DNA of 64,000 bases from an uncultured Hungatella sp. GTDB taxonomy: Bacteria > Bacillota > Clostridia > Lachnospirales > Lachnospiraceae. Position numbers and translations under genes: made by a program. The notes under the pieces were generated by a model. It worked only from the letters and a program-made list of their open reading frames with translations, ran no database searches and was not told the origin of the DNA. Positions 15,651 to 59,450 of this stretch are shown here, piece after piece. The stretch lies in contig CAMUJH010000014.1 of the NCBI GenBank assembly GCA_947089145.1, forward strand, positions 1 to 64,000. Direction: 5' to 3'. The first letter of the stretch is position 1. The number at the start of each line of letters is the position of its first letter.

Positions 15651-15735
15651 CTCCATGCGTCCGGCAGGGATCTGCTGCCACACATAAAAGTCTTGCGGGC
15701 GCATTTGGCATCCCGGAATGCCTCCAGGGGGATGC
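15651..15735 (+). repeat. family A dispersed repeat, copy A1 (degenerate 3' part)
   Basis: Shares the core TGCGGGCGCATTTGGCATCC (15694-15713) and the upstream CCGGCAGGGA and ATAAAAGTCTTG blocks with five other copies in the window. The third hairpin is replaced by a different sequence. It lies in the divergent purA/XRE region. Confidence 0.75.
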
Positions 15736-16007
15736 ACACAAAATGCCAAAAGCAGGCATTTTGGCGCCATACGGTCAGCGCAGCATATGCGCAGACCTGC
15801 CATAAGAATTTAATACTTTCATAGTAACCGACACAGTAAGGATATATGAAAAAAAGGCATAAGTAAAATCAATATTAATTATATAATACATAAGTAATAC
15901 TTATATATCCAAGCAAGACAAAACGGACATCTTTTAAGTATTGGCAGCAAACCGAGATGATATGAACAACAGTTAAATTTATTTCCGGATCATTAACATC
16001 CATTCAG

Positions 16008-16036
16008 TTGAACAGCATATAAGCGTCTGATATGAT
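16008..16036 (+). promoter_or_regulatory. promoter of the XRE regulator gene
   Basis: -35 TTGAAC (16008-16013), 17-bp spacer, -10 TATGAT (16031-16036), about 50 bp before the start codon. Confidence 0.65.
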
Positions 16037-16093
16037 TAAGGCAGCAAAGGCCGATGCGAAATATGAGAGCTCAGGATAATAGGTAAGGAGGCA

Positions 16094-17146
16094 GTGAGTA
16101 AAAGAATGCAGATTGGACAGGTAATACGGAAATACAGAAAAATAAAGAATCTGACCCAGGAGGAGATGGCCAGCCGTTTGGGGGTAAGCGCTCCGGCGGT
16201 GAATAAATGGGAGAACGGCAATTCATTTCCGGATATTATGCTTTTGGCCCCTATTGCCAGGCTTTTGGATATTACTCCGGATACGCTTTTGGAATTTCGG
16301 GAGGAAATGACAGAGGAAGAAATTCGGGAAATTGTCTGCGAAACGGACAGAAGGATGAAAGAAGGCACTTATGAAGAGGCTTTTTTATGGGTAAAGAGGA
16401 AGGTGGAAGAATATCCGGACTGTGAGCAGCTTATGGTGCAGATGGCAGCGGTGCTGGATGCCAATGGGGTAATGAGAGGAATTCATGAAAAGCAGTATGA
16501 GGATGTGATTCTTTGGTGGTACCAGAGGGCTTTGGAAAGCAAGGATGAGGACATCCGCATTATGGCAGCTGAGGGGCTTTTTGGATTTTATAAGAGGAAA
16601 GGCCAGTATGATAAGGCAGAGGAATGCGTGGCTTTTTTCTCGGCCCAGAATCCGGAAAAGAAATGGAGGCTGGCTGAGATTTACAGAGAAACGGGAAAAA
16701 CGGAGGAGGCTTACAAGATTTATGAAGAGCTGCTGTTTTCTTCCTACCAGAGGACAAGCGCATATTTTTACGGCATTTTCAGGCTGGCCGCAGACGGCGG
16801 GAATATGGAAAAGGCCCGTATGGCAGCCGCAAAAATGGGAGAGCTGGCCAAAGTTTTTGAAATGGGGGAATACTATCAGGTTTCAGGAAGCCTGGAGCTG
16901 GCTGCTTTGGAAAAGGATGCAGATGCTGCCGTCAATATTGCGGAGAAAATGATTTTAAATGCGGAGAACGTATGCGGATATACGGAGTCTGATCTGTACC
17001 AGCATATGGCTTTTAAAAACGTGAACCCTGAATTTGTCGCGAACCTAAAGAATAACTTAATAAAACTGTTTCAGGATGAGGATAGCTTTGGATTTTTAAA
17101 AGAAGACGCCAGGTGGAAGAAGCTGGTTGGAATAGAAAACAGCTAA
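16094..17146 (+). CDS. XRE-family transcriptional regulator with helical repeat C-terminus
   Basis: An N-terminal HTH_3 DNA-binding domain (IGQVIRKYRKIKNLTQEEMA, then VSAPAVNKWENGNSFPD, residues ~7-65) is followed by ~280 residues of TPR-like helices. Such proteins are usually repressors or global regulators. The frame starts with GTG at 16094, only 2 nt after AAGGAGG (16085-16091). An ATG at 16106 (MQIGQVIRKYR) is 14 nt away and also plausible. It is transcribed away from purA. No target operator is evident; autoregulation is possible but not shown. Confidence 0.85.
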   Translation: MSKRMQIGQVIRKYRKIKNLTQEEMASRLGVSAPAVNKWENGNSFPDIMLLAPIARLLDITPDTLLEFREEMTEEEIREIVCETDRRMKEGTYEEAFLWVKRKVEEYPDCEQLMVQMAAVLDANGVMRGIHEKQYEDVILWWYQRALESKDEDIRIMAAEGLFGFYKRKGQYDKAEECVAFFSAQNPEKKWRLAEIYRETGKTEEAYKIYEELLFSSYQRTSAYFYGIFRLAADGGNMEKARMAAAKMGELAKVFEMGEYYQVSGSLELAALEKDADAAVNIAEKMILNAENVCGYTESDLYQHMAFKNVNPEFVANLKNNLIKLFQDEDSFGFLKEDARWKKLVGIENS

Positions 17147-17186
17147 GTTATAAAAGGATAAAAAGAGTAAAATATTTGTGAAGTTT

Positions 17187-17270
17187 GTGACAAAATCAAG
17201 CAACCTGTGTTATACTGTCCAGGTAGACAATAGAGAGCGCAGCCAGGCCGGACGTAAGTTTACGTCCGGC
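17187..17270 (+). promoter_or_regulatory. promoter and 5' UTR hairpin of the hflK operon
   Basis: -35 GTGACA (17187-17192), 18-bp spacer, -10 TATACT (17211-17216). The leader carries a perfect 11-bp hairpin (17247-17257 with 17260-17270, GCCGGACGTAA arms, very small loop) not followed by a T run, so it is not an obvious terminator. It may protect the 5' end or bind a regulator. Confidence 0.65.
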
Positions 17271-17303
17271 TTGTGTATAGGCAAAGTGAGGTGTCATATT
17301 TTT

Positions 17304-18353
17304 ATGGAAAGTTATAATCCAGAAGTGGAACAGAAAGTAAAGAACGCAGTAAAAAAGGCCAAGAGGTTTGCAGGATTCGGTCTGGTTCTTATAATGGCTT
17401 TTGTATTTGGAACAGGGTCATTTTATAATATAGAGGAGCAGGAGCAGGCGGTGCTGACCACTTTCGGCAAGGCCGTCAGCGTGACAGCGCCAGGGCTCCA
17501 TTTTAAGATCCCTCTGATTCAGCAAGTACAGAAGGTCAATACCACGATCCAGGGATTTGCCCTGGGGTATAACCAGGATGACAATGAGAGCATGGAAGAA
17601 GACTCTCTGATGATCACAAGCGATTACAACTTTGTCAATGTAGACTTTTTTATTGAGTACAAGGTGGCAGATCCGGTGAAGGCAGTGTACGCTTCCAAGG
17701 ACCCGGTTCTGATTCTTCGGAATATAAGCAAAAGCTGCGTCAGGACGGTTATCGGAAGCTATGATGTGGATTCGGTGCTGACCACGGGAAAAAACGAGAT
17801 CCAGTCAAAGGTCAGGGACATGATCATAAGCCAGCTGGATAAACACGATGTGGGACTGCAGGTAGTCAATGTGACCATCCAGGATTCGGAGCCGCCTACA
17901 GCAGAGGTTATGGAGGCGTTTAAAGCAGTGGAAACTGCCAAGCAGGGCAAGGAGACTGCGATTAATAACGCCAACAAGTACCGCAATGAAAAGCTGCCGG
18001 GGGCGGAGGCGCAGATTGACAAGATTATGCAGGACGCCCAGGCGGAGAAGACCAGAAGGATCAATGAGGCCAATGGGGAAGTGGCCAAATTTAACGCCAT
18101 GTATGATGAGTATGTCAAGAACCCCCAGGTTACCAGACAGAGAATGTTCTATGAAACTATGGAGGACGTGCTTCCGGGACTGAAAGTGGTCATTGACGGC
18201 ACGGACCAGACAAACACCATTCTTCCCCTTGACAGCTTTTTCAGCGCAGAGACAGGAAACACGTCTCAGGTTCAGGCAGGCGGCCTGACAGGCAAAAACG
18301 CAGAACCGACGCAGGGAAGCGAAGCGGAAGATGACCCAAGCGGGGAGGAATAA
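17304..18353 (+). CDS. hflK: FtsH protease modulator HflK (SPFH/prohibitin family)
   Basis: A 349-residue membrane-anchored SPFH protein that, with HflC, forms a complex regulating the FtsH protease. One N-terminal membrane span (~21-43) is followed by the SPFH/Band 7 domain (EEQEQAVLTTFGKAVSVTAPGL), a charged coiled coil (NANKYRNEKLPGAEAQIDKI) and a Ser/Glu-rich tail. The ATG at 17304 is preferred because the promoter and leader hairpin occupy the upstream open frame. It is followed 4 bp later by hflC. Confidence 0.9.
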   Translation: MESYNPEVEQKVKNAVKKAKRFAGFGLVLIMAFVFGTGSFYNIEEQEQAVLTTFGKAVSVTAPGLHFKIPLIQQVQKVNTTIQGFALGYNQDDNESMEEDSLMITSDYNFVNVDFFIEYKVADPVKAVYASKDPVLILRNISKSCVRTVIGSYDVDSVLTTGKNEIQSKVRDMIISQLDKHDVGLQVVNVTIQDSEPPTAEVMEAFKAVETAKQGKETAINNANKYRNEKLPGAEAQIDKIMQDAQAEKTRRINEANGEVAKFNAMYDEYVKNPQVTRQRMFYETMEDVLPGLKVVIDGTDQTNTILPLDSFFSAETGNTSQVQAGGLTGKNAEPTQGSEAEDDPSGEE

Positions 18354-18357
18354 AGCT

Positions 18358-19230
18358 ATGAAAAAAATGTTGGGAAAGACTTTGGCATTGGTGATAGCCA
18401 TAGCGGCTGTTATTGGACTGGGCGAGTCCATGGTGATTACCAAGGAGAATGAGTATAAACTGATTCGGGAGTTCGGGCGGGTCAGCAAAGTGATTGACAG
18501 TGCCGGATTAAGCTTTAAGGTTCCGTTTATACAGAGCGCAGACACATTGCCGAAAGAGATCCTTCTCTATGATCTGGCACCGTCGGACGTGATTACCATG
18601 GATAAAAAAACTATGATGTCAGACAGTTATGTTTTGTGGAAGATTACCGATCCTCTGAAATTTGCCCAGACCTTGAATTTCTCCCTTCTCAATGCAGAGA
18701 GGAGGATCGACGCCGCAGTTTACAATTCCATTAAAAACGTTATCAGCAGCTTAAGCCAGAATGATGTGATCAGCGGCCGCGACGGGCAGCTGTCAGAGGC
18801 AATCATGGACAATATCGGAGGGAGCATGGATCAGTACGGCATCGAGATTCTGGCAGTGGAGACGAAGCAGCTGGATCTGCCGTCTGATAACAAGGCAGCG
18901 GTTTATGAGAGAATGATTTCCGAGCGTGATAAGATTGCGGCTACGTATCAGGCTGAGGGCCAGGCTGAGGCCAAGGTGATCCAGAACACCACAGACAGGG
19001 AAATCGCCATCAGCGTATCCGATGCCCAGGCAAAAGCGGCAGCGGTTACGGCTGAGGGGGAGGCGGAATACATGAGGATTCTGGCCGCGGCATACAATAC
19101 GCCGGAGCGGGCGGAATTTTACGGGTTTATAAGAGCCCTGGAGGCGGCCAGAGCTTCTCTGACAGGCAGCCAGAATACGCTGATTCTGCCGGGGGATTCT
19201 CCTATTGCCAGGATTTTCACAGGGCAGTAG
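18358..19230 (+). CDS. hflC: FtsH protease modulator HflC (SPFH family)
   Basis: A 290-residue partner of HflK with one N-terminal membrane span (~7-27), a Band 7 domain (ENEYKLIREFGRVSKVIDSAGL) and the long helical segment rich in Ala/Glu near YERMISERDKIAATYQAEGQAEA, as in other HflC proteins. GGAGG precedes the ATG at 18358. The 4-bp distance to hflK implies one operon. metF follows 43 bp later and may be read through. Confidence 0.92.
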   Translation: MKKMLGKTLALVIAIAAVIGLGESMVITKENEYKLIREFGRVSKVIDSAGLSFKVPFIQSADTLPKEILLYDLAPSDVITMDKKTMMSDSYVLWKITDPLKFAQTLNFSLLNAERRIDAAVYNSIKNVISSLSQNDVISGRDGQLSEAIMDNIGGSMDQYGIEILAVETKQLDLPSDNKAAVYERMISERDKIAATYQAEGQAEAKVIQNTTDREIAISVSDAQAKAAAVTAEGEAEYMRILAAAYNTPERAEFYGFIRALEAARASLTGSQNTLILPGDSPIARIFTGQ

Positions 19231-19273
19231 GGATTTTGGGAGTACAGAAATTGGAGAACAGGAGCAGACGGAG

Positions 19274-20143
19274 ATGAAGATAAGAGACATATTAAGCCAG
19301 GGAAGGCCGACCCTCTCTTTTGAGGTGTTTCCTCCTAAAACGGAAGACAGATATGAAACCGTGGAGGCGGCTGCCAGAAAAATCGCAGAACTGATGCCGG
19401 ATTTTATGAGCGTGACTTACGGGGCGGGAGGAGGAACCAGCCGGTATACGGTGGATATTGCCGCTGCCTTGAACAATGAGTACCAGGTGCCTACATTGGC
19501 CCATTTAACATGCGTGTCCTCCACAAAAGAGCATGTCCGCCATGTTTTGCAGGAGATGAAAGATAAAGGCATCGAGAATGTGCTGGCCTTGAGGGGAGAT
19601 ATACCTGAGGGCGGAAGGACGGCCCATGACTATCGGTATGCCTCGGAGCTGATTTCCGAGATCAAAAGCAACGGGAATTTCTGCATCGGGGCCGCCTGTT
19701 ACCCGGAAGGCCACGTAGAGTCTGCCAATAAGACAGAGGATATTACCTATCTGAAACAGAAGGTGGAGGCAGGCTGCGATTTTGTCACGACTCAGATGTT
19801 CTTTGATAATAATATTCTTTATAATTATCTGTACCGGATTCGGGAGAGGGGGATCACCGTGCCGGTGGTGGCAGGAATCATGCCGGTGACAAGCGCATCC
19901 CAGATTCAGAGGATCTGCCGCATGTCCGGCACGTACCTGCCGTCACGGTTTAAAGCCATCGTGGATCGGTTCGGAGACAATCCGGCGGCTATGAAGCAGG
20001 CAGGCATTGCCTATGCCACGGAACAGATCATTGATCTGATTGCCAACGGGGTCAATGGAATACATATTTATTCTATGAACAAACCTGATGTGGCGGCGCG
20101 GATACAGGAGAGCCTGTCAGAGATTCTGGGCAGGGGAAATTGA
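19274..20143 (+). CDS. metF: 5,10-methylenetetrahydrofolate reductase
   Basis: Flavin-dependent TIM-barrel enzyme reducing methylene-THF to 5-methyl-THF, the methyl donor for methionine synthase. Motifs are SFEVFPPKTE (residues ~15-24), MSVTYGAGGGTSR, NVLALRGDIP, and the C-terminal GVNGIHIYSMN ending. 289 residues, normal length. The ATG at 19274 has a GGAG site 9 nt upstream. It works with the metH pair at 25.3-28.5 kb. A strong palindrome follows at 20165-20205. Confidence 0.96.
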   Translation: MKIRDILSQGRPTLSFEVFPPKTEDRYETVEAAARKIAELMPDFMSVTYGAGGGTSRYTVDIAAALNNEYQVPTLAHLTCVSSTKEHVRHVLQEMKDKGIENVLALRGDIPEGGRTAHDYRYASELISEIKSNGNFCIGAACYPEGHVESANKTEDITYLKQKVEAGCDFVTTQMFFDNNILYNYLYRIRERGITVPVVAGIMPVTSASQIQRICRMSGTYLPSRFKAIVDRFGDNPAAMKQAGIAYATEQIIDLIANGVNGIHIYSMNKPDVAARIQESLSEILGRGN

Positions 20144-20164
20144 CGTCCCATTTTACAGGGCTTT

Positions 20165-20205
20165 ACGGCATGCATTATGGCTGCTTCTGCTGCGATGCAT
20201 GCCGT
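20165..20205 (+). terminator. stem-loop downstream of metF, possible terminator
   Basis: A perfect 11-bp stem ACGGCATGCAT/ATGCATGCCGT, 21 bp past the metF stop. The following U run is poor (TTTGC), so termination would be weak or factor-assisted. Confidence 0.45.
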
Positions 20206-20309
20206 TTGCAATGCTGGCAAAGCGTCGACAAGGCCGGAGATTGAATAAAAATACCTAAATAATGAAAAAATAATCATATTTTTTATGGGCAAAATGCACA
20301 AAAACATAG

Positions 20310-20338
20310 TTGACATTTTTATGTCAAAGAGGTATAGT
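20310..20338 (+). promoter_or_regulatory. promoter of the exported flavoprotein gene with overlapping palindromic operator
   Basis: Perfect -35 TTGACA (20310-20315), 17-bp spacer, -10 TATAGT (20333-20338). The -35 lies in a perfect 7-4-7 palindrome, TTGACAT-TTTT-ATGTCAA (20310-20327). Such an overlap is typical of a repressor site or of a Crp/FNR-like dimer site. The downstream 5' UTR of ~220 nt consists mainly of the family B repeat. Confidence 0.75.
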
Positions 20339-20366
20339 AAGGGCAAGGCGCCATAGGCGCCTGACA

Positions 20367-20536
20367 ATGTACTCTCGGAATCTCTCCTGCACCTGCCTTT
20401 GCGGCTGATCTTCCGTCAGATGCACATAAATTTAACCAACGTACGTTCCATGTGTTTCATATACGCCTCATAAATTTATGAACATCCGACAAAAATCATC
20501 TCACAAAATCAGGCCAGAGAGACTTCGAAAGCACAT
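20367..20536 (+). repeat. family B palindromic repeat, copy B1
   Basis: About 170 bp, nearly identical over most of its length to copy B2 at 33161-33322. It opens with ATGTACTCTCGGAATCTCTC and ends with an imperfect inverted copy (...TTCGAAAGCACAT), has inner arms CATAAATTTA/TAAATTTATG, and a centre CAACGTACG...TACGCCTC. It sits in the 5' UTR of the flavoprotein gene. Confidence 0.9.
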
Positions 20537-20561
20537 AACAAAATAAGGGAGGATAGTTATA

Positions 20562-22598
20562 ATGAAGAAAAAACTATCATGTGTGGCTTCCGTGATGCTG
20601 GCAGTCAGCCTGACAGCATGTTCAGGAGGCGGACAGGAGACAACCACGGCTGCGCCGGAGACGACTGAGACAAGCGCGCCGGAGCAGACTACCAAGGCAG
20701 CGGAGGAAGAAACTACGGCGGCGGAAGCCGGAGGACTTACGGCAGGCACGTATACCGCGTCCAAGGGCGGCATGAACGGTGATGTGACCGTAGAGGTAGT
20801 GACAGACGATTCGTCCATCGTTTCCGTAACCGTGACGGATAACCAGGAAACGCCTGGCATCGGTTCCCCACTGGTAGACGGAGTGAAAGAGGGAACAGTT
20901 CCCACGGTTTCCATTCCTGCTGCTATTGTTGAGAACCAGTCTGTTGCCGTTGACGCAGTGGCAGGAGCTACCATTACAAGCGCAGCGATTAAGTCTGCGG
21001 TGGAAGACTGCCTGACTCAGGCGGGGGCCAATGTGGATGACTGGAAAACCGAAGTGGAGAAAGAACCGGGAAAAGAGATTGAGATGGATGCCGACGTTAT
21101 TGTAGTAGGCGGCGGCGGAGCCGGACTGGCTGCGGCTATTTCCGCATCAGAGAACGGCGCAAAGGTAATCGTAGTGGAGAAGAATGGCGCGGTAGGCGGA
21201 GATACCCTGGTCTGCGGCGCAATTTACAATAACCCGGATGAAGAGCTGCAGAGCAAGGTTGAGATGAGTGATGCGGTGAAGAAGACTCTGGAGGCAGGCA
21301 TTGCAGTAGATCCTGTGGATGATGCCCACAAGGAGCTGATAAATACGGTTTCCGAAGAGTGGAAGCAGCATCAGGCTGACGGAAAGACCACCTTGTTTGA
21401 TTCGGACGCCTGGTTTACCCTTCAGACCTATAACGGCGGAGACAACGTGGCTGATCTGGAGCTGGTTAAGGTTCTGTGCGACAATGCGGTAGAAGGATAT
21501 GAGTGGATCAAGGGCCTTGGCATGGAGTTTAATGACACCATCGGTCAGGGCGCAGGCTCTCTTTGGCAGAGAACCCATACCTCCACAAAGCCTATGGGCA
21601 CCGGCTTTATTTCCACCTATGTGGAGAACATTGCCAAGGATGACAACATTGAGATGCTTACCTCCACGACAGCTACCGGCTTGATCCAGGATGACAGCGG
21701 ACGGGTAGTAGGCGTAGAGGCAGAGGATGTTAACGGCAATACATATAAGTTCCAGGCTTCCAAAGGCGTGGTTTTGGCTACCGGCGGTTTTGCGGCCAAT
21801 TCCAAGATGGTAAATGACAACAATACGACAGGAAAGTGGAATGACCTGTCCAAGGTTCCCACTACCAACCGCTTTGGCTGTTCCCAGGGCGACGGAATCC
21901 TGATGGCTCAGGACATCGGCGCAGCCCTGTATCAGATGGAGCAGATCCAGCTTCTGTATCTTGGCAACGTGAAGGACGGCGGCCTGACCAAATATCCGGC
22001 CCGCTGCGTAAACGGCACGGATCAGGAGATCTTTATCAATAAGAACGGTGAGCGCTTCGTAAGAGAAGACGGACGCCGTGACGAGATCTGTCTGCAGGTG
22101 CTGGCTCAGCCGGATGCCATGTTCTATTTCCTGGAGTCCGCAGACGGCGATTATACGGATGTTGAGACGGCGCTGACAGCAGACGGCTTTACCTTTAAGG
22201 AGATGGAGGAGCAGGGATACATTATTATTGCCGACACTCTGGAAGAGATGGCTGAGAAGCTGGGATGTGATGCAGAGACTCTTAAAGCTACAGTAGATAC
22301 GTTTAATGCTTCCGTAGACAGCGGCGAGGACGAGTTCGGCCGTACCCTTTACAGCATTAAGCTGGAGAACGGGCCGTGGGTTGCAACTCCTCGGCAGGCA
22401 TGCGTTCATCATACCATGGGCGGCGTGAAGATTGATACGGAAGGCCGTGTTCTGAAAGAGGACGGAACTCCGATCGAAGGCTTGGTAGCAGCAGGCGAGA
22501 TCACAGGCGGCATCCACGGAGCTAACCGTTTAGGCGGCAATGCGGTTGTTGATACGGTTGTATTTGGCAAGCTGGCAGGCGAGACGGTTACGAAGTAA
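20562..22598 (+). CDS. exported lipoprotein flavin reductase: FMN-binding domain plus fumarate-reductase-like FAD domain
   Basis: A 678-residue protein predicted to be anchored outside the cell. The lipoprotein signal ends LTACS (Cys20). A Thr/Glu-rich linker (~25-60) follows. An FMN-binding domain carries the ApbE flavinylation motif DAVAGATITSAA (~133-144). Then comes a fumarate/urocanate-reductase-type FAD domain (VVGGGGAGLAAA ~181, NGERFVRE, HHTMGG, TGGIHGANRLGGNA). The substrate Arg and His motifs are present, but the Frd-type HPT segment is not obvious, so the electron acceptor is uncertain. It likely takes electrons through covalent FMN to reduce an external unsaturated organic compound. 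Confidence 0.9.
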   Translation: MKKKLSCVASVMLAVSLTACSGGGQETTTAAPETTETSAPEQTTKAAEEETTAAEAGGLTAGTYTASKGGMNGDVTVEVVTDDSSIVSVTVTDNQETPGIGSPLVDGVKEGTVPTVSIPAAIVENQSVAVDAVAGATITSAAIKSAVEDCLTQAGANVDDWKTEVEKEPGKEIEMDADVIVVGGGGAGLAAAISASENGAKVIVVEKNGAVGGDTLVCGAIYNNPDEELQSKVEMSDAVKKTLEAGIAVDPVDDAHKELINTVSEEWKQHQADGKTTLFDSDAWFTLQTYNGGDNVADLELVKVLCDNAVEGYEWIKGLGMEFNDTIGQGAGSLWQRTHTSTKPMGTGFISTYVENIAKDDNIEMLTSTTATGLIQDDSGRVVGVEAEDVNGNTYKFQASKGVVLATGGFAANSKMVNDNNTTGKWNDLSKVPTTNRFGCSQGDGILMAQDIGAALYQMEQIQLLYLGNVKDGGLTKYPARCVNGTDQEIFINKNGERFVREDGRRDEICLQVLAQPDAMFYFLESADGDYTDVETALTADGFTFKEMEEQGYIIIADTLEEMAEKLGCDAETLKATVDTFNASVDSGEDEFGRTLYSIKLENGPWVATPRQACVHHTMGGVKIDTEGRVLKEDGTPIEGLVAAGEITGGIHGANRLGGNAVVDTVVFGKLAGETVTK

Positions 22599-22702
22599 AC
22601 CTGCATGTGCCCGGTTTGGGATGCGCCGCCGCATACGAAGGCCTGGCGGGCGCTTGACATCCCTGAACGGATGCCGCCTACTTGGCGGTGGGGCTTTCAT
22701 GA
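22597..22702 (+). repeat. family A dispersed repeat, copy A2
   Basis: Starts at the stop codon of the flavoprotein gene. It contains CCTGGCGGGCGC, a diverged middle (TTGACATCCCTGAACGGATG) and the terminal hairpin GCCGCCTACTTGGCGG. It is the most diverged of the copies with all three blocks. Confidence 0.8.
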
Positions 22703-22773
22703 TAAAAGGTACATGTTTTTTGTGGAAGGCAATGGGCCTATGGTAACAGGACACTTCCGCAAATAAAAAGAAT

Positions 22774-30353: not shown

Positions 30354-30473
30354 GCCCCAAGGGCTCCATCTCCTGTCAGGGCTCAGAATTGCCAAATGTT
30401 CCGAAGAATCCGAAAAACAGGTTTCTTCTCCACGGCATTAATTCACCCTGACAGGAGATGGAGCCCTTGGGGC
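30354..30473. repeat. 120-bp element with 28-bp perfect terminal inverted repeats
   Basis: 30354-30381 is the exact reverse complement of 30446-30473 (arm starts GCCCCAAGGGCTCC). The 64-nt interior has further complementary blocks (GAAGAA with TTCTTC, GCC with GGC), so the whole can fold into one long hairpin. It lies between the chr gene pair and the ABC-F promoter. No target duplication, T run or reading frame is evident. It could be a miniature transposon, a structured RNA or a strong bidirectional stop. Confidence 0.8.
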
Positions 30474-32542: not shown

Positions 32543-33055
32543 ATGTTAGATGCAAAAGTGGCAGAACTGCTGAATACGCAGGTAAACAAGGAGTTTTATT
32601 CCGCATATCTGTATCTGGATTTTTCTAATTACTATATGGATCAGGGGCTGGAGGGCTTTGGAAACTGGTACAAGGTTCAGGCCCAGGAGGAGCGGGATCA
32701 TGCCATGCTGTTTATGCAGTATCTGCAGAATAACGGGTGCAAGGTAACATTAGAAGCCATTGACAAGCCGAACAGTGAACTGAAAGGATTTGCAGACCCC
32801 CTTCGTGCAGGATATGAGCATGAGCAGTATGTAACCAGCCTGATTCATACGATCTATGAAGCGGCAGGCGAGGCGAAAGATTTCCGCACCATGCAGTTTT
32901 TAGACTGGTTTGTGAAAGAGCAGGGCGAGGAAGAAACCAATGCAGAGGCGCTGATTAAGAAGTTTGATCTGTTCGGCTCAGACCCAAGGGCTCTTTACAT
33001 GCTGGACAGCGAACTGGGAGCAAGAACATATTCCGCACCATCCCTGGTACTGTAA
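32543..33055 (+). CDS. ferritin
   Basis: A 170-residue bacterial non-heme ferritin (FtnA type) that oxidises and stores iron in 24-subunit shells. Four-helix bundle with di-iron ligands in NKEFYSAYLYLDF (Glu), AQEERDHAMLF (E-x2-H) and KEQGEEETNAE (Q/E-E-E). The ATG at 32543 follows AAAGGAGGAG. An upstream frame to 32462 overlaps the promoter. The stop codon is the first base region of repeat A3. Confidence 0.95.
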   Translation: MLDAKVAELLNTQVNKEFYSAYLYLDFSNYYMDQGLEGFGNWYKVQAQEERDHAMLFMQYLQNNGCKVTLEAIDKPNSELKGFADPLRAGYEHEQYVTSLIHTIYEAAGEAKDFRTMQFLDWFVKEQGEEETNAEALIKKFDLFGSDPRALYMLDSELGARTYSAPSLVL

Positions 33056-33160
33056 ACCCCCATCTGCCCGGCGGGGAGGCACCATTGCCCATGAAAGTCT
33101 GGCGGGCGCATTTGGCATCCCAGAATGCATACCGCCTGATCGGCGGCGGGACTGTCATGG
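33053..33160 (+). repeat. family A dispersed repeat, copy A3
   Basis: Begins at the ferritin stop codon. Core GGCGGGCGCATTTGGCATCC at 33101-33120, third hairpin ACCGCCTGATCGGCGG. It runs directly into family B copy B2 at 33161 with no spacer. Confidence 0.9.
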
Positions 33161-33322
33161 ATGTACTCTCGGAATCTCTCCAGCACCTGCCTTTGCGGCT
33201 GATTTTCCGTCATATGCGCATAAATTTAATCAACGTACGTTTCACGTACGCCTCATAAATTTATGCACATCTGACAAAAATCGTCTCACAAAATCAGGCA
33301 CAGAGAGACTTCGAGAGTACAT
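33161..33322 (+). repeat. family B palindromic repeat, copy B2
   Basis: 162 bp with near-perfect 20-bp terminal inverted repeats (ATGTACTCTCGGAATCTCTC against GAGAGACTTCGAGAGTACAT), inner arms CATAAATTTA/TAAATTTATG and a centre CAACGTACG-TTTCA-CGTACGCCTC. It closely matches B1 (20367-20536) and abuts repeat A3. Confidence 0.92.
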
Positions 33323-33424
33323 ATGGTGCATAGGGAGAAAGGCTGCAGAGGTTAAGGACAGCCCCCAGTGGTCTGGACAATGCTTTTTGTCAGCTCCGGG
33401 GCTGTTTCTGACAGAGGAAAAAAG

Positions 33425-37788: not shown

Positions 37789-38985
37789 ATGAAAAGACAG
37801 ATTATAGTTTTCATAAGCGCGGCATTTTTGACGGTATCAGGTTTCGGAACGTTAAATTCTGCTGCGGCAGGTGCCGGAGAGTGTTTGAAAATTCATTCCC
37901 ACCGTGTCACCCCGCTTTACAGCAGCCAGAAAAAAGAAAAAAGCGGTGGGAACCAAAGCTCTGAGGAAACGGTGAAAGGCAGCGGCAGGGAACAAGTTTA
38001 CATAAAGGAGCCTCATGAGAAGGGGAAGATAACCTTATGCTTTGCAGGGGACATCAGTTTTGCGGAAGGGTACGCCAACATGAGCTATTACCACAGCAAT
38101 GGCGATGATATTACAAAATGCATTGTGCCAGAGGTGATTGCGCGGATGGATGCCGCAGATATTATGATGGTAAATAATGAGTTTACATACAGCAGCAGAG
38201 GAAAGCCGTTGCCTGGCAAGACGTTTACGTTTCGGGCAAAGCCGGAAACGGCAGCGAATCTGTCAGTGCTGTCAGCGGATATTGTTTCATTGGCTAATAA
38301 CCATGTGTATGATTATGGGGAAACCGCTCTTTTAGACACTCTGGATACGCTTAACCAGCATGGGATTTTGCATGTAGGTGCCGGAAGGAATCTGGAGGAG
38401 GCAAAGCAGATCGTATACTTTCAGACAGGCGACATGAAAATTGCCTATGTCAGCGCAACCCAGGTGGAGCGCTCCTATGTATATACGAAAGAAGCTACAG
38501 ACACTACGGCAGGAGTCTTAAGGACTTATGACCCGGCGGCATTTCTGGAAGTCATAAAGAAGGCGGACGAAACCAGCGACTTTGTGGTGGTTTATGTCCA
38601 CTGGGGAACTGAGGGGGTTAACCGGTTTGAGACGGATCAGCAGAATCTGGGACATCAGTATATTGACGCAGGGGCTGATCTGGTTATGGGGGATCATCCT
38701 CACTGCCTGCAGGGGGTGGAATATTATAAAGGGGTACCCATTTTCTACAGCCTGGGGAATTTCTGGTTTAACACCAGAACCAGGGACACAGGGCTTGTGG
38801 AGGCGGACATTTCACCAGAAGGCGTGAAAGAGCTCCGCTTCGTACCCTGCATCCAGAAAGGATGCCGTACCACATTGGTAAAGGACGAGGAGGAGAGACA
38901 AAGGATTTTCCGCTTTTTGGAAGATATCTCCGCTGATGTGGTGATTGACGGCAGTGGGGTAATCAGGGAGAAGGCAGCAGATTGA
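37789..38985 (+). CDS. CapA family protein (poly-gamma-glutamate capsule/metallophosphatase-like)
   Basis: A 398-residue exported protein. An N-terminal signal peptide (IVFISAAFLTVSGFGTLNSAAAG) is followed by a Ser/Lys-rich linker (~30-80) and the CapA domain with ITLCFAGDISFAEG, VNNEFTYS, LANNHVYDYG, VVYVHWGTE and GDHPHCLQG, which carry the metal-binding Asp, Asn and His of the calcineurin-like fold. It acts outside the membrane, probably on an envelope polymer. Odd feature: codons for ECLKIHSH in the linker (37881-37900) are identical over 20 nt to the left end of the family C repeat at 57527. Confidence 0.9.
   Translation: MKRQIIVFISAAFLTVSGFGTLNSAAAGAGECLKIHSHRVTPLYSSQKKEKSGGNQSSEETVKGSGREQVYIKEPHEKGKITLCFAGDISFAEGYANMSYYHSNGDDITKCIVPEVIARMDAADIMMVNNEFTYSSRGKPLPGKTFTFRAKPETAANLSVLSADIVSLANNHVYDYGETALLDTLDTLNQHGILHVGAGRNLEEAKQIVYFQTGDMKIAYVSATQVERSYVYTKEATDTTAGVLRTYDPAAFLEVIKKADETSDFVVVYVHWGTEGVNRFETDQQNLGHQYIDAGADLVMGDHPHCLQGVEYYKGVPIFYSLGNFWFNTRTRDTGLVEADISPEGVKELRFVPCIQKGCRTTLVKDEEERQRIFRFLEDISADVVIDGSGVIREKAAD
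37877..37920 (+). repeat. partial family C repeat inside the capA reading frame
   Basis: GTGTTTGAAAATTCATTCCC (37881-37900) is identical to 57534-57553, the left end of the full family C element. The match continues with gaps (CACCCCGCTTT against CGCCCCACTTTG). It is in the linker after the signal peptide, in frame and without stops. Confidence 0.75.
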
Positions 38986-42568: not shown

Positions 42569-42828
42569 TTTTCACACTCCAACAAACCATATAATAAGTA
42601 ACTCTTCTTATTATATTCTAAATCAGACCGGTACGCAATACTCGCAGCCATCTTTTTGCAGCAGCCGACTTTAAATGTCGGTCCAGATTACAGTCCGCCA
42701 GTGAACTGTAACGGCATCTGGAAAATAAAGAAAAAAGATGAAGAAAAAAGATCTGCAAATATGCTTCCCTTTTAGGGAAAGTCATGATAGAATAAACAGG
42801 ATAAAAACAACCGCAAACATTTTAACAT

Positions 42829-43059
42829 GATAGAGGTGCGGGATTCAAGAGTATCAGGGGATCATAGCTGAACCGCTGTTTCCTGAGAAAGGGGATTTCG
42901 CCGAAGGGCTTTTTGCCGGTTCAGGCATAAGGTTCTGGGACGACGCAGAATATGCGGCGTACTGTCACGTATGTGGAGCGCTATCTGTGTTGTCAGGTTC
43001 CAGATTTTAACACACCACAAACGCGTTTCCTTGCGGGAACAGATGTTTGTGGTGTTTTT
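42829..43059 (+). promoter_or_regulatory. lysine riboswitch (L box) with terminator platform
   Basis: The conserved L-box blocks appear in order: TAGAGGTGCG (42831-42840), AGAGTATCAGGGG, GAAAGGGGATTTCGCCGAAG, TTCTGGG, ACTGTCACGT (42961-42970), and GGAGCGCTATCTG (42975-42987). A terminator follows: ACACCACAAAC (43012-43022) pairs with GTTTGTGGTGT (43045-43055), then a T run. Lysine binding is expected to stabilise the terminator and turn off the NhaC-type gene 88 bp downstream. The 42600-42828 stretch before it shows only a small CCGAC/GTCGG stem and a weak TAGAAT -10 (42788). Confidence 0.92.
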
Positions 43060-44852: not shown

Positions 44853-44857
44853 TAGTA

Positions 44858-44967
44858 AACCCCCACGCGCCCGGCCGGGGAGGCATCATCCCCCATGAAA
44901 GTCCGGCGGGCGCATTTGGCATCCCAGAATGCGTGCCGCCTATTCGGCGGCGGGATTTTTATAGTAA
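44858..44967 (+). repeat. family A dispersed repeat, copy A4
   Basis: Core GGCGGGCGCATTTGGCATCC at 44905-44924, third hairpin GCCGCCTATTCGGCGGC followed by GGGATTTTTATAG, which looks like an intrinsic terminator. It is bracketed by a 16-nt direct repeat (44843-44858 and 44952-44967), the first copy of which is the 3' side of the preceding gene's terminator. Confidence 0.92.
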
Positions 44968-54038: not shown

Positions 54039-54162
54039 AGTATATTCCTCCTCAATTAAAATGTTATTGTCTGGCTTGCCGAAGCAGAATAGGCAACGGT
54101 TCAAGGGGTATGTGAACTGTTACGAGTATAACATGGAGAAGGGCGGCAGGCAAATGGAAATA

Positions 54163-54191: not shown

Positions 54192-54255
54192 TGTAACAGC
54201 AATGCCAGGCGTATTAAAACTGGTGCAGATTAAAAAAGAAGGGCTGGAAAACGGC

Positions 54256-54750
54256 ATGGTGGCATTGAAAGTGGAGGATATCAGGCAGTTTACGACAGGG
54301 CTGTTTATCGGAAACCTGTTTGACAAATTTTTGGTAAGGGAAGCAGATATTGTGACGTTTAACGCTTTTCATGTGGACGGGCGGATAAAGCCTGGATTTT
54401 ATACGGAGCAGGAGACAGAAGAGAAAGAAATCGGGGAATATTCCGCATGGGAAGCGATTAAGCCGGTGTGTTTTTCGCTGATTAAAGGGAAACGGCTGCC
54501 AGGAAGCTTTCAGATTGTGCTTCAGCTGGGAAAAAAGCAGGTGGAACAGTTTCTGGCCAAAAGGCAGACAGCTGTCAGGGCGGAGCAGGTTGGAGGAATG
54601 TATATAAATATACGGTATGAGAACGGAGAGCTTTTCTGCGTGACAGGAACATCCGTTAACTTTTTTACCATGGATAAGTCTCTGGATATGGAGTGGGATA
54701 ATGCGGTGAAGGAATTTTTCAGGCGGAATGGGATTCCGGTTATAGCGTAA
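54256..54750 (+). CDS. DUF5721 family protein
   Basis: A 164-residue cytosolic protein. The start at 54256 is chosen because MVALKVEDIRQFTTGLFIG matches the family's usual opening and because a perfect promoter occupies 54163-54191; the frame is open further upstream. It has FLVREADIVTFNAFHVDGRIKPGF, a block typical of DUF5721, and a beta-rich C-terminal half (MYINIRYENGELFCVTGTS). The function is not known. The stop codon is the first base region of repeat A5. Confidence 0.8.
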   Translation: MVALKVEDIRQFTTGLFIGNLFDKFLVREADIVTFNAFHVDGRIKPGFYTEQETEEKEIGEYSAWEAIKPVCFSLIKGKRLPGSFQIVLQLGKKQVEQFLAKRQTAVRAEQVGGMYINIRYENGELFCVTGTSVNFFTMDKSLDMEWDNAVKEFFRRNGIPVIA

Positions 54751-54855
54751 ACCTTCCTGCGCCCGGCAGGCGGCGCACCGCTGCGCATGAAAGCCTGGCG
54801 GGCGCACTTGGCATCCCAAAATGCATGCCGCCTGATTGGCGGCGGACTTTTATAT
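54749..54855 (+). repeat. family A dispersed repeat, copy A5
   Basis: Core with one change (GCGCACTTGGCATCC, 54797-54816). The first stem is near perfect: CGCCCGGCAGGC against GCCTGGCGGGCG. Third hairpin GCCGCCTGATTGGCGGC. It fills the whole gap between the DUF5721 stop and the tdk ribosome site. Confidence 0.92.
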
Positions 54856-54870
54856 AAGGAGATGAGGACA

Positions 54871-55446
54871 GTGGCAAAGCTGTATTTTCGATATGGAGCT
54901 ATGGGAAGTTCCAAAACCGCCAATGCGCTGATGGTGGAGTACAATTATTTTGAGCGCGGCAAAAAGGCTCTTTTGGTAAAGCCCCGGCTGGATTCCAGGG
55001 ACGGGGATTATATCATACGTTCCAGAATGGGGTTGGAGAAAGAAGGAATTCTTTTGGAAAACCTGGCGAAGATGGAAGATAAGGAAATCCGGCAGTATGA
55101 CTGCATCATTGTGGATGAAGCCCAATTTGCGTCCAAGGCTCAGATTGAGTTTTTGGTGCATATTGTGGATGATCTGGCAGTGCCGGTGATCTGTTATGGC
55201 TTAAGGACAGATTTTAGAAGGGAGTTTTTTGAGGGAAGCTTATGGCTTATGGCGTGGGCGGATGTTATTGAGGAGATAAAGACCGTGTGCTGGTGCGGCA
55301 AAGCAGCTACCTGCAATGCCAGAATCGGTGAGGACGGAAGGATGATCCAGGCAGGGGAGCAGATCCTTATGGGAGGCAATGACAGGTATACGGCGCTCTG
55401 CAGAAAGCATCACCGCCAGGGGAATCTGGGGCCGAAGCCCGCGTAA
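54871..55446 (+). CDS. tdk: thymidine kinase
   Basis: A 191-residue type II thymidine kinase that salvages thymidine to dTMP. P-loop GAMGSSKT (residues ~10-17), Walker B-like CIIVDEAQF, the thymidine-site region CYGLRTDF, and zinc-binding Cys in VCWCGKAATCNAR and ALCRKHH are present. The start is taken as GTG 54871 (AAGGAG at 54856-54861, 9 nt). An ATG at 54862 abuts the ribosome site, and earlier in-frame ATGs lie within repeat A5. Confidence 0.94.
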   Translation: MAKLYFRYGAMGSSKTANALMVEYNYFERGKKALLVKPRLDSRDGDYIIRSRMGLEKEGILLENLAKMEDKEIRQYDCIIVDEAQFASKAQIEFLVHIVDDLAVPVICYGLRTDFRREFFEGSLWLMAWADVIEEIKTVCWCGKAATCNARIGEDGRMIQAGEQILMGGNDRYTALCRKHHRQGNLGPKPA

Positions 55447-55597
55447 CGGCAGGCATATGCGGGGGTGCCAAAGCTGCATTTATCCCGTCCAGGGCAGGGC
55501 CGAAGCGCGCATAACAGCAGACATAGCGGGGCAAAGCGGGCAGGCGGCCAAATATCCAGGCGTACGGGGGCGCCAGGGGAGAATAGAAGGAGAGTGC

Positions 55598-57442
55598 ATG
55601 ATGTTCAGGGAGATTGGGGAGAGCGCAGCCGTGACTGCGCTATTTGATCTGTACCCGCCTGCAAAAGACAGGAAGGCATGGGAGGAAATACCAAAAAGCT
55701 ACAGAGAACGATTAATAGAGGAAGGAGAAAAGTGGCTGAACTATGAATTTCCCCCTATTTATGCTTCTGACTTTATGGAATTTTGCCGTACAGGGAACCG
55801 CACCCACTATGAGGATAAGCAGTTTAAGAGGAGAACCGTGCTTAATGCCCTGGTTCTGGCAGAATGCGCCCAGTATCAGGGGCGTTTTCTGGATGAGATT
55901 ATCAACGGCATTTTTTTAATATGCCAGGAAGCGGCATGGCAGATTCCGGCCCACAATTCCTATATCCGGGATACGCCTCAGCAGATTCTTCCTGATGTTA
56001 CAAGGCCTGTTATTGATCTGTTTGCGGCGGAAACAGGGGCAGTGGCAGCCATGGCAGAGTATCTGCTGCGGGATGCCCTTAACAAAGTCAGCCCGGCTAT
56101 TTCCAAAATGGTGGATCACAATCTGGAAAACAGGATTTTAAAGCCCTATTTGGAAGAACATTTCTGGTGGATGGGCGACGGAACTTCCCCTATGAACAAT
56201 TGGACGGCATGGTGCACTCAAAATGTGCTTATTGCGGCATTTACCAGGAAGCTGCCGGAGAACATGCAGATTGATATTGTGCAAAAGGCCTGCAGAAGCC
56301 TGGATTATTTTCTGGATGAGTATGGGGAGGACGGATGCTGCGATGAAGGCGCCCAGTATTACCGCCATGCGGGGCTGACGCTGTTTAATGCCATGGAAGT
56401 TCTCAACCACGTCTGCGGGGGAGCATTTTCGGCTCTCTACAAAAAGGATAAGATCGGCAATATAGCGGCCTATATCCGAAAAGTCCATGTGGCGGGCCCG
56501 TATTATATAAATTTTGCAGACTGCTCTCCCATAGCCGGAAGATGCGGCGCCCGGGAATATCTGTTTGGAAAGCGGACAGGCGATGACAGCCTGAGAGCAT
56601 TTGCTGCTGAGGACTACAGAGGCTGCGAAGACCAGCTGAATCTGGAGGAACATAATCTGATGTACCGGGTACAGGCTGCATTTTCCCATAAAGAGATGAT
56701 GAAATACGGAAAAGACAGGGCAGAGCCAGGGCTAAGGCAGGAACAGGAGGCTGACTGTTATTTTCCAAGCACCGGCCTTTTCGTTGCCAGGGATGACAGG
56801 TTCTGTATGGCTGTAAAAGCCGGGGACAATGATGACAGCCACAACCACAACGACGCAGGCAGCTTTACGGTCTATAAAGACGGGAAGCCTTTGTTTATTG
56901 ACGTAGGGGTGGAGAGCTATACCAAGAAGACATTTTCGCCTGAGAGGTATGAGATCTGGACCATGCAGTCCCAGTATCACAATCTTCCATCCTTTGGAGG
57001 TGTTATGGAAAAGGACGGGAAGGAATTTTGTGCCGCAGATGTGGAATATGGCATGGGAGAGGAAGCGTCCTGGATTTCTATGGAGCTGGCGGGAGCCTAT
57101 CCCAGGTGCCGGACTGCGTCTTACAGAAGGAAGGCCTGCCTGGAGAAGGGAGGCTGCATCCGTATTACGGACAGATGGGAAGGAAACGGGGAAAGCAAAG
57201 ATGTGGTGCTGTCTCTGATGACTTACGAAAAGCCGGACATAAGACAAGAAGGACAGGGATTCAGGATGGAGCTGGAGGGTCTGGGCAGCTGCAGCATAAT
57301 CGGCGGGATTCATGTTGCGACAGAGGAGATACCGATTATTGACGAAAGACTGAAAACTGCGTGGAAACATAATATTTTCCGCACTTTGGCGGCCTTTGCG
57401 GGGAGAGAGGTGCAGATTGTAATTTGGCGCAGTCCGTCATAG
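55598..57442 (+). CDS. heparinase II/III-like polysaccharide lyase
   Basis: A 614-residue protein with an alpha/alpha-toroid N-terminal part (helical, ~1-360, with GMG-like WWMGDGTSPMNNWTAWCTQN and YYRHAG) and a heparinase II/III C-terminal beta domain (DDSHNHNDAGSFTVYKDGKPLFIDVG, ~420-460, carrying the His/Tyr motif). It degrades or trims uronic-acid-containing glycans. There is no signal peptide, so it probably acts on imported oligosaccharides. AAGGAGA precedes ATG 55598 (or 55601). Context with YesMN and a sugar ABC transporter supports glycan use. Confidence 0.87.
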   Translation: MMFREIGESAAVTALFDLYPPAKDRKAWEEIPKSYRERLIEEGEKWLNYEFPPIYASDFMEFCRTGNRTHYEDKQFKRRTVLNALVLAECAQYQGRFLDEIINGIFLICQEAAWQIPAHNSYIRDTPQQILPDVTRPVIDLFAAETGAVAAMAEYLLRDALNKVSPAISKMVDHNLENRILKPYLEEHFWWMGDGTSPMNNWTAWCTQNVLIAAFTRKLPENMQIDIVQKACRSLDYFLDEYGEDGCCDEGAQYYRHAGLTLFNAMEVLNHVCGGAFSALYKKDKIGNIAAYIRKVHVAGPYYINFADCSPIAGRCGAREYLFGKRTGDDSLRAFAAEDYRGCEDQLNLEEHNLMYRVQAAFSHKEMMKYGKDRAEPGLRQEQEADCYFPSTGLFVARDDRFCMAVKAGDNDDSHNHNDAGSFTVYKDGKPLFIDVGVESYTKKTFSPERYEIWTMQSQYHNLPSFGGVMEKDGKEFCAADVEYGMGEEASWISMELAGAYPRCRTASYRRKACLEKGGCIRITDRWEGNGESKDVVLSLMTYEKPDIRQEGQGFRMELEGLGSCSIIGGIHVATEEIPIIDERLKTAWKHNIFRTLAAFAGREVQIVIWRSPS

Positions 57443-57476
57443 AAGGAGGCAAAAACCAAGGCAATGCAGTTTGAGC

Positions 57477-57500
57477 AGGCTCTGCCCCGTGGCAGAGCCT
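57477..57500 (+). terminator. stem-loop after the heparinase gene
   Basis: A perfect 10-bp stem AGGCTCTGCC/GGCAGAGCCT with a CCGT loop, 35 bp after the stop, without a T run. It precedes the family C palindrome. Confidence 0.45.
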
Positions 57501-57526
57501 GAACGAATATTCCTGCAAGTCACGTT

Positions 57527-57692
57527 CTAGAGCGTGTTTGAAAATTCATTCCCGCCATCTGCACGCCCCACTTTGCGGGAGATCTGGCCCTCATTCGGTC
57601 AACGTAGCCCACTACGCCTCCCTCATTCGGGCCAGATCTCCCGCAAACTGTGACGCACATCTGACGGAAAGCAATTTTCAAACACGCTCTAG
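57527..57692. repeat. family C palindromic element, full copy
   Basis: 166 bp. Outer arms are 20 bp and perfect (CTAGAGCGTGTTTGAAAATT at 57527-57546 against 57673-57692). Inner arms are 19 bp and perfect (57572-57590 against 57629-57647, TTTGCGGGAGATCTGGCCC). The centre holds CGTAG-CCCA-CTACG. It lies between the convergent heparinase and response-regulator genes, and its right end supplies the regulator's TAG stop codon. The core TCAACGTA...TACGCCTC and box GCACATCTGAC are shared with family B. Confidence 0.93.
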
Positions 57693-59290
57693 GGCTTCAG
57701 GGATTGCTGTACAAATTCCCTGGGGGACACACCAGCCACCTTTTTGAATACCTTGCTGAAATAAAAGGCGCTTTCAAACCCCAGCTGATCCGCCACTTCA
57801 TACACTTTCATGTCCTGTTCCAGCAGCATGGTTCTGGCCCGGCTTATTTTCATCTGGGTAATGTATTCCGAGAATCCGATGCCGCAGGTCTTCTTAAACA
57901 GCACGCTGAGATAATTGGGGCTGAGCCCGAATACGGCGGATACTTCGTTTAAAGTCAGCCTCTCGTCAATGTGGTTCTGAATATATTTCTGGATATTGGA
58001 GATAACATGTTCCTTGTAGGTAATGCGTTTGGATTTCAGGGTTTCGCACAGCCCGTCCCGCAGGCGGACCATCCAGTCTGACACTTGCTCCACATTGCCC
58101 ATGCGGTAGATGGAGCGGTAATTGTCAGGGTCATCAGAAAAGATCCCGGCAAGGGTTTCTTCACCAGAGGGAAGAAGAGACAGAGCCAGATACAGGATAT
58201 TGCAGGCACCGTCAATGGCCTGAAGATACCGCAGAGGGTTTGAGCGGAACAGCTCAATGATCTGGGTCAGGGTATCATAGAGAATGCCGGTGTCAAATTC
58301 CTCAAAAGCTTTGGTCAGGTCATTTTTAAAAAGGGTAATATTAAAGGAATTTTTAATATCTTCCGGCTTCACCTGGTCGTAATCCCGGAAAGGGTCTTCC
58401 AGGGTGGCGGAGGTAAAGGCAACCCTGGCATCCTGATAAGAATCGCTGATCTTCAAAGGAGAATCCACCACAGAGCCAATACCCACCGTGAGACGGACAT
58501 TAAAATAATTGCGTACCATGGCGGAGGCATTGCGGAGAGCTTCCATCATCTTTTCATGCTCTTCTTTGCTGACGGCAGAAAAATGAAAAATGATGGAAAA
58601 GTGTTTCAGATCCAGAGAGATAACCTGGCATGTCATGTGGCGCTTTAAAATGTCCTTTACCATCTGCATGGTGCTGTTGTACAGATTCATCAGCTGGCCG
58701 TGGGTCATATCCCGGACAGAATCTTCCAGAATCTCGCAGTGAGCCGCTGCAAAGTATTGATTGTCAAAATTCAGGCTTAAATCTTTTGCCTGAAGCTTAA
58801 ATTGCTCCTCATTGTCAAAAAGATTGTGGAGAAGCCGCAGAAAAAACTTGTCCAGATAGCTCTGGAGGATGGGACGCCTTTCGCTGCGGACGGTTTCACT
58901 GGCTCTCAGCTCATTAAGCCTTTCCAGCGTCCGGCCAATGGATCTGCCCAGAGCCTCAGGGTCCAGCTCCAGCTTAATAAGATAATCAACAACCTCGTAA
59001 GAGAGGGCCTGCCTTGCCAATTCAAATTCTTCATAGCTGGTCAGGATAATGAACAGAGGTATCCGGCCATAGGTTTCCCGGCAGATTTTGGCCAGTTCCA
59101 GGCCGTTCATAATCGGCATGCGGATGTCAGTAATGACGATTTCCGGAGAATACTCTTCGATCATCTCCAGCGCGACGGCTCCATTCATGGCAGTCCCGCA
59201 CACCTCAATCCCATAATCAGCCCAGTTAAGCATGGATTTAATTCCAATCTGAACTAAAGGTTCATCATCTGCAATCAGTAATTTAATCAT
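57689..59290 (-). CDS. YesN-type response regulator with AraC DNA-binding domain
   Basis: A 533-residue two-component regulator. The receiver domain (1-~125) has LLIADDEP, phospho-acceptor Asp in IVITDIRMP (~54) and the Lys region. A long middle domain (~150-400) follows, then a C-terminal AraC/HTH_18 domain (~430-530: LTLNEVSAVFGLSPNYLSVLFKKTCG, VADQLGFESAFYFSKVFKKVAGVSP). It probably activates the neighbouring sugar ABC transporter genes. It lies downstream of the sensor kinase gene on the same strand, separated by 176 bp containing repeat A6. Its stop codon lies within element C. Confidence 0.93.
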   Translation of the reverse strand: MIKLLIADDEPLVQIGIKSMLNWADYGIEVCGTAMNGAVALEMIEEYSPEIVITDIRMPIMNGLELAKICRETYGRIPLFIILTSYEEFELARQALSYEVVDYLIKLELDPEALGRSIGRTLERLNELRASETVRSERRPILQSYLDKFFLRLLHNLFDNEEQFKLQAKDLSLNFDNQYFAAAHCEILEDSVRDMTHGQLMNLYNSTMQMVKDILKRHMTCQVISLDLKHFSIIFHFSAVSKEEHEKMMEALRNASAMVRNYFNVRLTVGIGSVVDSPLKISDSYQDARVAFTSATLEDPFRDYDQVKPEDIKNSFNITLFKNDLTKAFEEFDTGILYDTLTQIIELFRSNPLRYLQAIDGACNILYLALSLLPSGEETLAGIFSDDPDNYRSIYRMGNVEQVSDWMVRLRDGLCETLKSKRITYKEHVISNIQKYIQNHIDERLTLNEVSAVFGLSPNYLSVLFKKTCGIGFSEYITQMKISRARTMLLEQDMKVYEVADQLGFESAFYFSKVFKKVAGVSPREFVQQSLKP

Positions 59291-59343
59291 GGTAGTTCAC
59301 AATCCTTTCCATTTTGTGCGGAAATTTATCGAATTTCAAAGAA

Positions 59344-59450
59344 AACCTCCATGGGCCTGGCAGGGGACGCACCACTGCGCATGAAAGCCTGGCGGGTGCA
59401 TTTGGCATCCTCAAGTGCATGCCGCCTAATGGGCGGCGAAACCGTAAAAG
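59344..59450 (+). repeat. family A dispersed repeat, copy A6
   Basis: Core GGCGGGTGCATTTGGCATCC (59391-59410), block GCATGAAAGCCT identical to A5, third hairpin GCCGCCTAATGGGCGGC. It is in the gap between the sensor kinase and regulator genes, both on the minus strand, so the repeat is antisense to that transcript. Confidence 0.9.

Follow-up and report, generated by a model that had tools for sequence, protein, structure and literature searches.

Family A is a short repeat in 64,000 nucleotides of DNA from an uncultured Hungatella sp. (contig CAMUJH010000014.1 of assembly GCA_947089145.1, positions 1 to 64,000 of the forward strand; this whole stretch is referred to as the window), and it resembles several described mobile systems. 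As far as the available text of their description goes (PMC3119063), the PATEs of the archaeon Haloquadratum walsbyi have near-terminal palindromes and no inverted repeats, insert without duplication at a target of 4-6 nt, are too short to encode a transposase, form divergent families with core-deleted short forms, insert into each other and are tied to IS605-type transposons with similar palindromes. Elements of the IS200/IS605 group (IS608, ISDra2 and IS605 of Halanaerobium), in the accessible part of PMC7290912, insert 3' of a specific tetranucleotide, carry hairpins at both ends and make no duplication; guide sequences at the feet of the hairpins and use of the lagging-strand template are described in the available portions of PMC7290912 and PMC6006769. 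REP and REPIN repeats, associated with the RAYT transposase (TnpAREP), are presented in the same portion of PMC6006769 as intergenic palindromes of high copy number, the proposed agent of their spread being a Y1 transposase that acts in trans.

Family A shares features with each of these. Like PATEs, so far as the accessible text of PMC3119063 describes them, it lacks inverted repeats and target duplication, has near-terminal palindromes, a 4-nt target and core-deleted forms, cannot accommodate a transposase gene, falls into divergent families and is found inserted at other elements; like IS200/IS605 elements, in the features outlined by the available sources, it is inserted 3' of a tetranucleotide, has end hairpins and makes no duplication; and like REP/REPIN repeats, within what the consulted portion of PMC6006769 states, it consists of high-copy intergenic palindromes. 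A first-pass annotation of the window had described six copies on one strand and read them as a REP-like or small-RNA family. We confirmed all six copies at the places noted, all on the + strand. What that reading overlooked is that family A, as comparison of filled and empty sites shows, is mobile, with exact ends and GTAA as its target.

Ends, target and filled sites

The mobile unit is about 109 bp long (ACCTNCATGCGCCC...GGACTTTCANAGTAA), with RTAA followed by ACCTNCATGC on the left and ACTTTCANAGTAA on the right. We analyzed the ends of 145 copies in which both were recognized, copies with unrecognizable ends or at locus edges being dropped. With one target base counted in, the length was 108-113 bp in 137 of them, 109 and 110 bp being the commonest, and a unit of this size is too short to encode a transposase. 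The last four bases read GTAA in 101/145 copies, a count biased upward because the right-end search pattern itself contains GTAA. Terminal inverted repeats are absent, the consensus 5' end and the reverse complement of the 3' end being identical at 1 of 20 positions (shuffled mean 4.8). In the 68 copies whose left flank is not element-like, the target positions were G (0.53) or A (0.35), T (0.50), A (0.68) and A (0.81).

We compared filled sites with their counterparts in a relative, genome G010, which is 93% and 92% identical to this genome at the two loci first searched. In the gap between the DUF5721 and thymidine kinase genes, G010 reads AATGTAA/GGAGATG (the slash marks the junction), whereas the window reads GCGTAA/ACC...TATATAA/GGAGATG; after the ferritin gene, G010 reads CTGTAA/GGAAAT and the window CTGTAA/ACCCCC. 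Joined-flank queries were prepared for 24 copies, two being omitted since their right flank was an element of a second family, family B, and 18 were searched in G010. Twelve spanned the junction, six of them precisely (loci L056, L023, L064, L044, L050 and L060); five junction-spanning sites had extra or diverged bases (L062, L063, L045, L102 and L042), L028 had a shortened remnant at the G010 site, L017, L026 and L035 gave a partial or split match, and L046 and L061 had no match in this search. In two of the six precise pairs, an unusual left tetranucleotide (ATAA, GCAA) is that of the empty site and the right one differs, which indicates that the left copy is the target. Two further pairs read GTAA throughout and so are uninformative on this point, and L060 (GTCG) is consistent with a left-copy target, with edges uncertain by two bases. 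Further, the L049 site is occupied in both genomes (locus L284 in G010) at the same junction, with flanks that align well and unit sequences that are visibly different, which suggests independent insertions into one target. Insertion thus occurs directly 3' of an RTAA-like tetranucleotide, mostly GTAA, with no other target duplication.

A covariance model built from the six window copies gave, at a cut-off of E of 0.01 or below, 105 matches in this 4.46-Mb draft genome (150 of 659 first-look candidates were scored), which puts the family well beyond chance; the window copies themselves had E-values of 5e-23 to 2e-40, although these are the very copies that the model was built on. Across the 41 genomes searched with the model, family A was found in eight, this one and seven congeners (8/25 genomes within the genus, and none of 16 from other families of the order). 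In named genomes, a pattern scan recovered at least 105 stretches in at least 16 assemblies, as counted by accession prefix; among the matches listed, the assembly labels were Lachnospiraceae, Limivivens, Caccovicinus, Cottocaccamicrobium, Ventrimonas, Hungatella, Hespellia, Robinsoniella, Enterocloster, isolate D16-56 and Clostridiaceae. Identical units occur at unrelated flanks within Caccovicinus (L160/L140) and within Limivivens (L156/L136). Family A has dispersed recently. Plasmids, phages and viral contigs gave no match to family A. The repeat is therefore more than a local duplication, the outcome that the first-pass annotation had tied to a lack of further copies, and its description as a dispersed, structured family without a known account is supported: there was no Rfam match for the whole window at gathering scores or for one copy at E up to 1, and a literature search, whose coverage mostly excluded subscription papers, returned no published description for Lachnospiraceae. 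Overall, we conclude that family A is almost certainly a mobile element.

Five of the six window copies are genuine family A units, and the sixth is a hybrid of families A and B; all features given here lie on the + strand unless stated. The unit at 22599..22705 follows a GTAA target (22595-22598) that includes the TAA stop of a flavoprotein gene. That at 33056..33160, which has lost its 3'-most bases to an adjoining repeat, follows GTAA at 33052-33055, including the stop of the ferritin gene, and its site is empty in G010, informatively so at the left junction only. The unit at 54751..54857, with the thymidine kinase gene downstream, follows GTAA at 54747-54750, including the stop of the DUF5721 gene, and has a clean empty site in G010. 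The three copies said to begin at stop codons (22597, 33053 and 54749) therefore do so, the TAA stop being the last three bases of the GTAA target. The 109-bp unit at 44859..44967 follows GTAA (44855-44858) within an upstream GGGATTTTTATAGTAA that resembles the element 3' end. At 59345..59453 is a unit with a decayed 3' end and GAAA as its left tetranucleotide (59341-59344); the genes on either side of it, for a response regulator and a histidine kinase, are on the - strand, and the unit is antisense to both. Lastly, the hybrid at 15651..15827 (left flank AGTAT, right end TACTTTCATAGTAA) consists of a family A 5' half to about 15724 and a family B 3' half from 15725 to 15827. The GCCGCC-N5-GGCGGC hairpin, once ascribed to all six copies, is present in five, with one base altered in the copy at 33053; the hybrid lacks it and past GGAATGC runs into the family B half.

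Arrays, truncated copies and family B

Head-to-tail arrays of family A, with units of about 108-113 bp, were seen in three genomes (G016, G010 and G000); their junctions read GTAA/ACC and, in places, GCAA, GGAA or a decayed form. Short forms of about 35-41 bp that retain both ends are also present. Such head-to-tail arrays with folded ends would also be expected of gene-less integron-like (attC) cassettes recombined by an integron integrase. The ends of attC sites follow the consensus RYYYAAC ... GTTRRRY, whereas those of family A are ACC and GTAA, and family A copies are dispersed over many contigs rather than clustered at one attI, so that we regard cassettes as scarcely credible.

Of the 145 copies with both ends recognized, 55 stand directly after a 10-mer resembling the element end. 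After removal of the 34 copies that have a preceding hairpin arm, 21/111 do so, compared with 266 of 11,505 RTAA sites (2.3%) in a background treated alike, which argues that element-end-like sequence is a favored target. We note that 5'-truncated or core-deleted remnants lie directly upstream of other units at L203, L148, L179, L119 and L157, as though the ends of old, decayed units were preferred by new copies. Truncations were even in the less biased set (eight at each end); in sets selected by the 3' half there was a 5' excess (31 versus 10, and 14 versus 6 among matches obtained without the search pattern). We rejected 5' truncation as a sign of reverse transcription, the skewed sets reflecting the choice of loci.

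Family B is about 162 bp long and has both end sequences in common with family A (window 15725-15827 and many loci, e.g. L097, L099 and L100). Its 5' part contains TTTACTATGAA, complementary to the target plus left end, and in A/B hybrids the switch points lie at ATGCCGC or CATGAAAG. In one search, 29/48 matches covered only the family B part of the query. Family B was found stacked behind family A and behind itself, and this stacking, together with the shared ends, points to one shared enzyme.

Folding, stop codons and strand

Each unit has a long imperfect palindrome near its left end and a strong hairpin near its right end. In the 54751 unit, the former (stem one) occupies 54758..54806 (TGCGCCCG...GGCGGGCGCA) and the latter (stem three) 54827..54843 (GCCGCC-TGATT-GGCGGC), 14 nt short of the 3' end. 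The three stems proposed at first fared differently in an alignment of 116 copies analyzed with 500 shuffles. Stem one is 86-92% paired and shows compensatory changes (one pair occurs as CG in 90 copies, GC in 12 and UA in 3), and stem three holds (96.7% paired) and is nearly constant. Together they contain 29 two-sided changed cells, 27 of them in stem one, compared with 5.5 in shuffles, none of the 500 being as high. In a sliding-partner control, no more than 16 such cells were reached and the score did not exceed 0.068, compared with 0.099. Stem two (GCATT/AATGC) was rejected as not conserved, 77% of its cells being paired and one pair being broken in 54/116 copies. GGCAT/ATGCC is nearly invariant and so uninformative for covariation, and the strongest covarying column pair (8-29), which lies outside any helix and looks like shared descent, was set aside. 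Between the stems, GGCATNCCNGAAT is almost invariant, and an internal ATGAAAGTC is complementary to the 3' end. Single-strand DNA folding clearly beat shuffles only for the 54751 copy (z -3.7, and -2.4 for the other strand); z was -0.6 to -1.8 for the remaining four + strand copies.

The compensatory changes in stem one, together with the placement of copies after stops, could speak for a structured RNA, i.e. a 3' untranslated region (UTR) element, an mRNA stabilizer or a small RNA acting after stop codons. In a survey of 134 copies with a crude open reading frame (ORF) caller, which called an upstream ORF for 110, 22 copies begin at a sense stop codon, and 20 of these 22 stops are TAA; this placement is explained by TAA being part of the GTAA target. 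Between co-oriented genes, 41 copies run with the genes and 14 against, which is not clearly unlike the supply of GTAA sites there (223 versus 135; p = 0.10). Further, orthologous sites are empty in the 92-93% identical relative, Rfam gave no match, and arrays with defined ends are typical of a mobile element. We therefore consider an RNA function of this kind unlikely, and nothing in our DNA-level analyses supports the small-RNA reading.

As to the strand bias raised in the first-pass annotation, the G-rich strand is favored, though in a way confounded with gene direction. In the named 8-kb loci, GC skew on the element strand was positive in 49/78 copies (p = 0.03). Over 777 kb of this genome, sampled around known copies and including the window, the element strand was the G-rich strand in 52/70 matches, whereas for intergenic GTAA sites the figure was 421/731 (p = 0.007). 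Insertion into the lagging-strand template would be expected to give a bias in this direction. Gene direction and the supply of targets largely account for the one-strand layout in the window.

Helper enzyme and mode of movement

By its anatomy, family A is best explained as a non-autonomous, PATE-like element of about 109 bp, and we lean toward single-strand transposition of the PATE type, with the helper supplied in trans. An HUH-type single-strand transposase would bind both palindromes on one strand, cleave on the 3' side of the left RTAA and of the right GTAA, and join the excised strand to the 3' side of a further RTAA in the lagging-strand template. The placement of copies after stops would then follow incidentally from the TAA in the target and, presumably, from the selective loss of insertions within genes.

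Y1 transposase genes (PF01797) gave three matches in this genome, with other ends, and a match in 8/12 carriers of family A; in G010, one such gene (L257) is adjoined by a family A array, but on just one of its sides. A separate IS200-like tnpA with a 145-codon open frame (L081; G000:C29:339-701) has hairpin ends of its own that differ from these. As candidates for an autonomous element with family A ends, six spans of 300-4000 bp in named loci were considered; the five inspected (all but L198) contained ordinary genes, flanked by end matches that were unrelated or due to chance. Right ends gave 55 pattern matches in this genome (13 for the reversed control), and no transposase was seen among the 30 inspected. 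Family A, which has no gene of its own, probably borrows an enzyme encoded elsewhere.

IS91 and Helitron elements have a tetranucleotide target at one end, a hairpin about 11-15 nt from the 3' end and tandem arrays. Family A is like them in its end-tetranucleotide target, 3'-proximal hairpin and tandem arrays, and unlike them in that a Y2 transposase (PF04986) was detected in only 1 of 13 genomes searched, drafts in which absence is weak evidence. The term REP-like applies only loosely. High copy number, frequent intergenic placement and hairpins would agree with REP/REPIN repeats spread by a RAYT transposase. REPs, however, are short (20-40 nt), carry a GT[AG]G foot and are arranged as inverted doublets, whereas family A units are about 109 bp long, have no GTAG or GTGG foot in the alignment and stand head to tail rather than in alternating doublets; moreover, the PF01797 genes of this genome lack family A repeats at their flanks. 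We consider a RAYT origin very unlikely.

Several observations weigh against PATE-like transposition by a Y1-type helper. First, no Y1 match was found in carriers G016, G006, G003 and G043, and none of 25 Y1 loci was bounded by the family A ends ACCTNCATGC and ACTTTCANAGTAA, although these are draft genomes and such absence is weak. Second, the target is loose, with GTAA in 23/68 copies without an element-like left flank (some others being mis-anchored), and at L050 the empty tetranucleotide is that of the right copy (GGAA), not the left. Third, the left palindrome lies only about 6 nt from the left cut and the right hairpin about 14 nt from the right end, so that, unlike in haloarchaeal PATEs as presented in the available text of PMC3119063, the left palindrome is nearer its end than the right. 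Fourth, two stricter measures of covariation are weak, two-sided change occurring in six pairs compared with 3.7 in shuffles (48/500 as high) and further pair types numbering 22 versus 19.1 (34/500 as high), and pairing of ATGAAAGTC with the 3' end as a guide was rejected, showing no covariation (57/500 swaps as high). Finally, the strand bias is confounded, gene direction agreeing with skew in 68/70 matches, and 35/134 copies lie inside an ORF of at least 80 codons by the crude caller. Family A also differs from PATEs in being bacterial rather than archaeal, in its sequence, in forming same-family head-to-tail arrays and in that no IS605-type transposon with the same ends was found; unlike IS200/IS605 elements, the unit has neither tnpA nor tnpB, and its hairpin-foot guide tetranucleotide is only a candidate.

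Alternatively, the unit might be mobilized by machinery that is neither Y1 nor Y2, either another recombinase that acts on folded DNA strands or a reverse transcriptase working through RNA. Caccovicinus genome G043, which carries identical dispersed copies and in which neither PF01797 nor PF04986 was detected, would fit this, as would the near-invariance of GGCATNCCNGAAT, expected of a protein- or RNA-bound motif. However, draft genomes lose repeated transposase genes, the anatomy fits HUH elements save for the end distances and the missing helper, and the even truncations of the less biased set are unlike target-primed reverse transcription. We view such machinery as possible but doubtful, and a more specific form of it, a long-lived gene-less Lachnospiraceae family moved by a non-Y1/Y2 enzyme that prefers its own 3' ends and builds arrays often behind stops, as somewhat more doubtful still. 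PATE-like transposition with a helper in trans remains the reading that we favor.

The window also holds other features. A third repeat (ATGTACTCTCGG...) at 20367-20545 and 33161-33323 (87% alike over 172 bases) directly abuts the 33056 unit, is partly self-matching in inverted form and has five BLAST matches in the 777 kb. An inverted repeat containing GTGTTTGAAAATTCATTCC (57527-57692 and 37868-37903; 81-nt arms, 77% complementary) has 24 matches there, and a perfect 28-bp inverted repeat with a 64-nt loop (30354-30473) has 12. A lysine riboswitch (42823-42991) lies upstream of a Na+/H+ antiporter family gene.

In gut Lachnospiraceae, family A is a mobile element of high copy number whose ends are well defined, and annotation would be misled if it were read as a regulatory RNA. 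Its defined target and ends make the search for its transposase straightforward, and its self-targeting arrays offer a natural test of site choice in single-strand transposition. Given its frequent placement at the 3' ends of genes, family A could alter 3' UTRs and terminators and could break assemblies.

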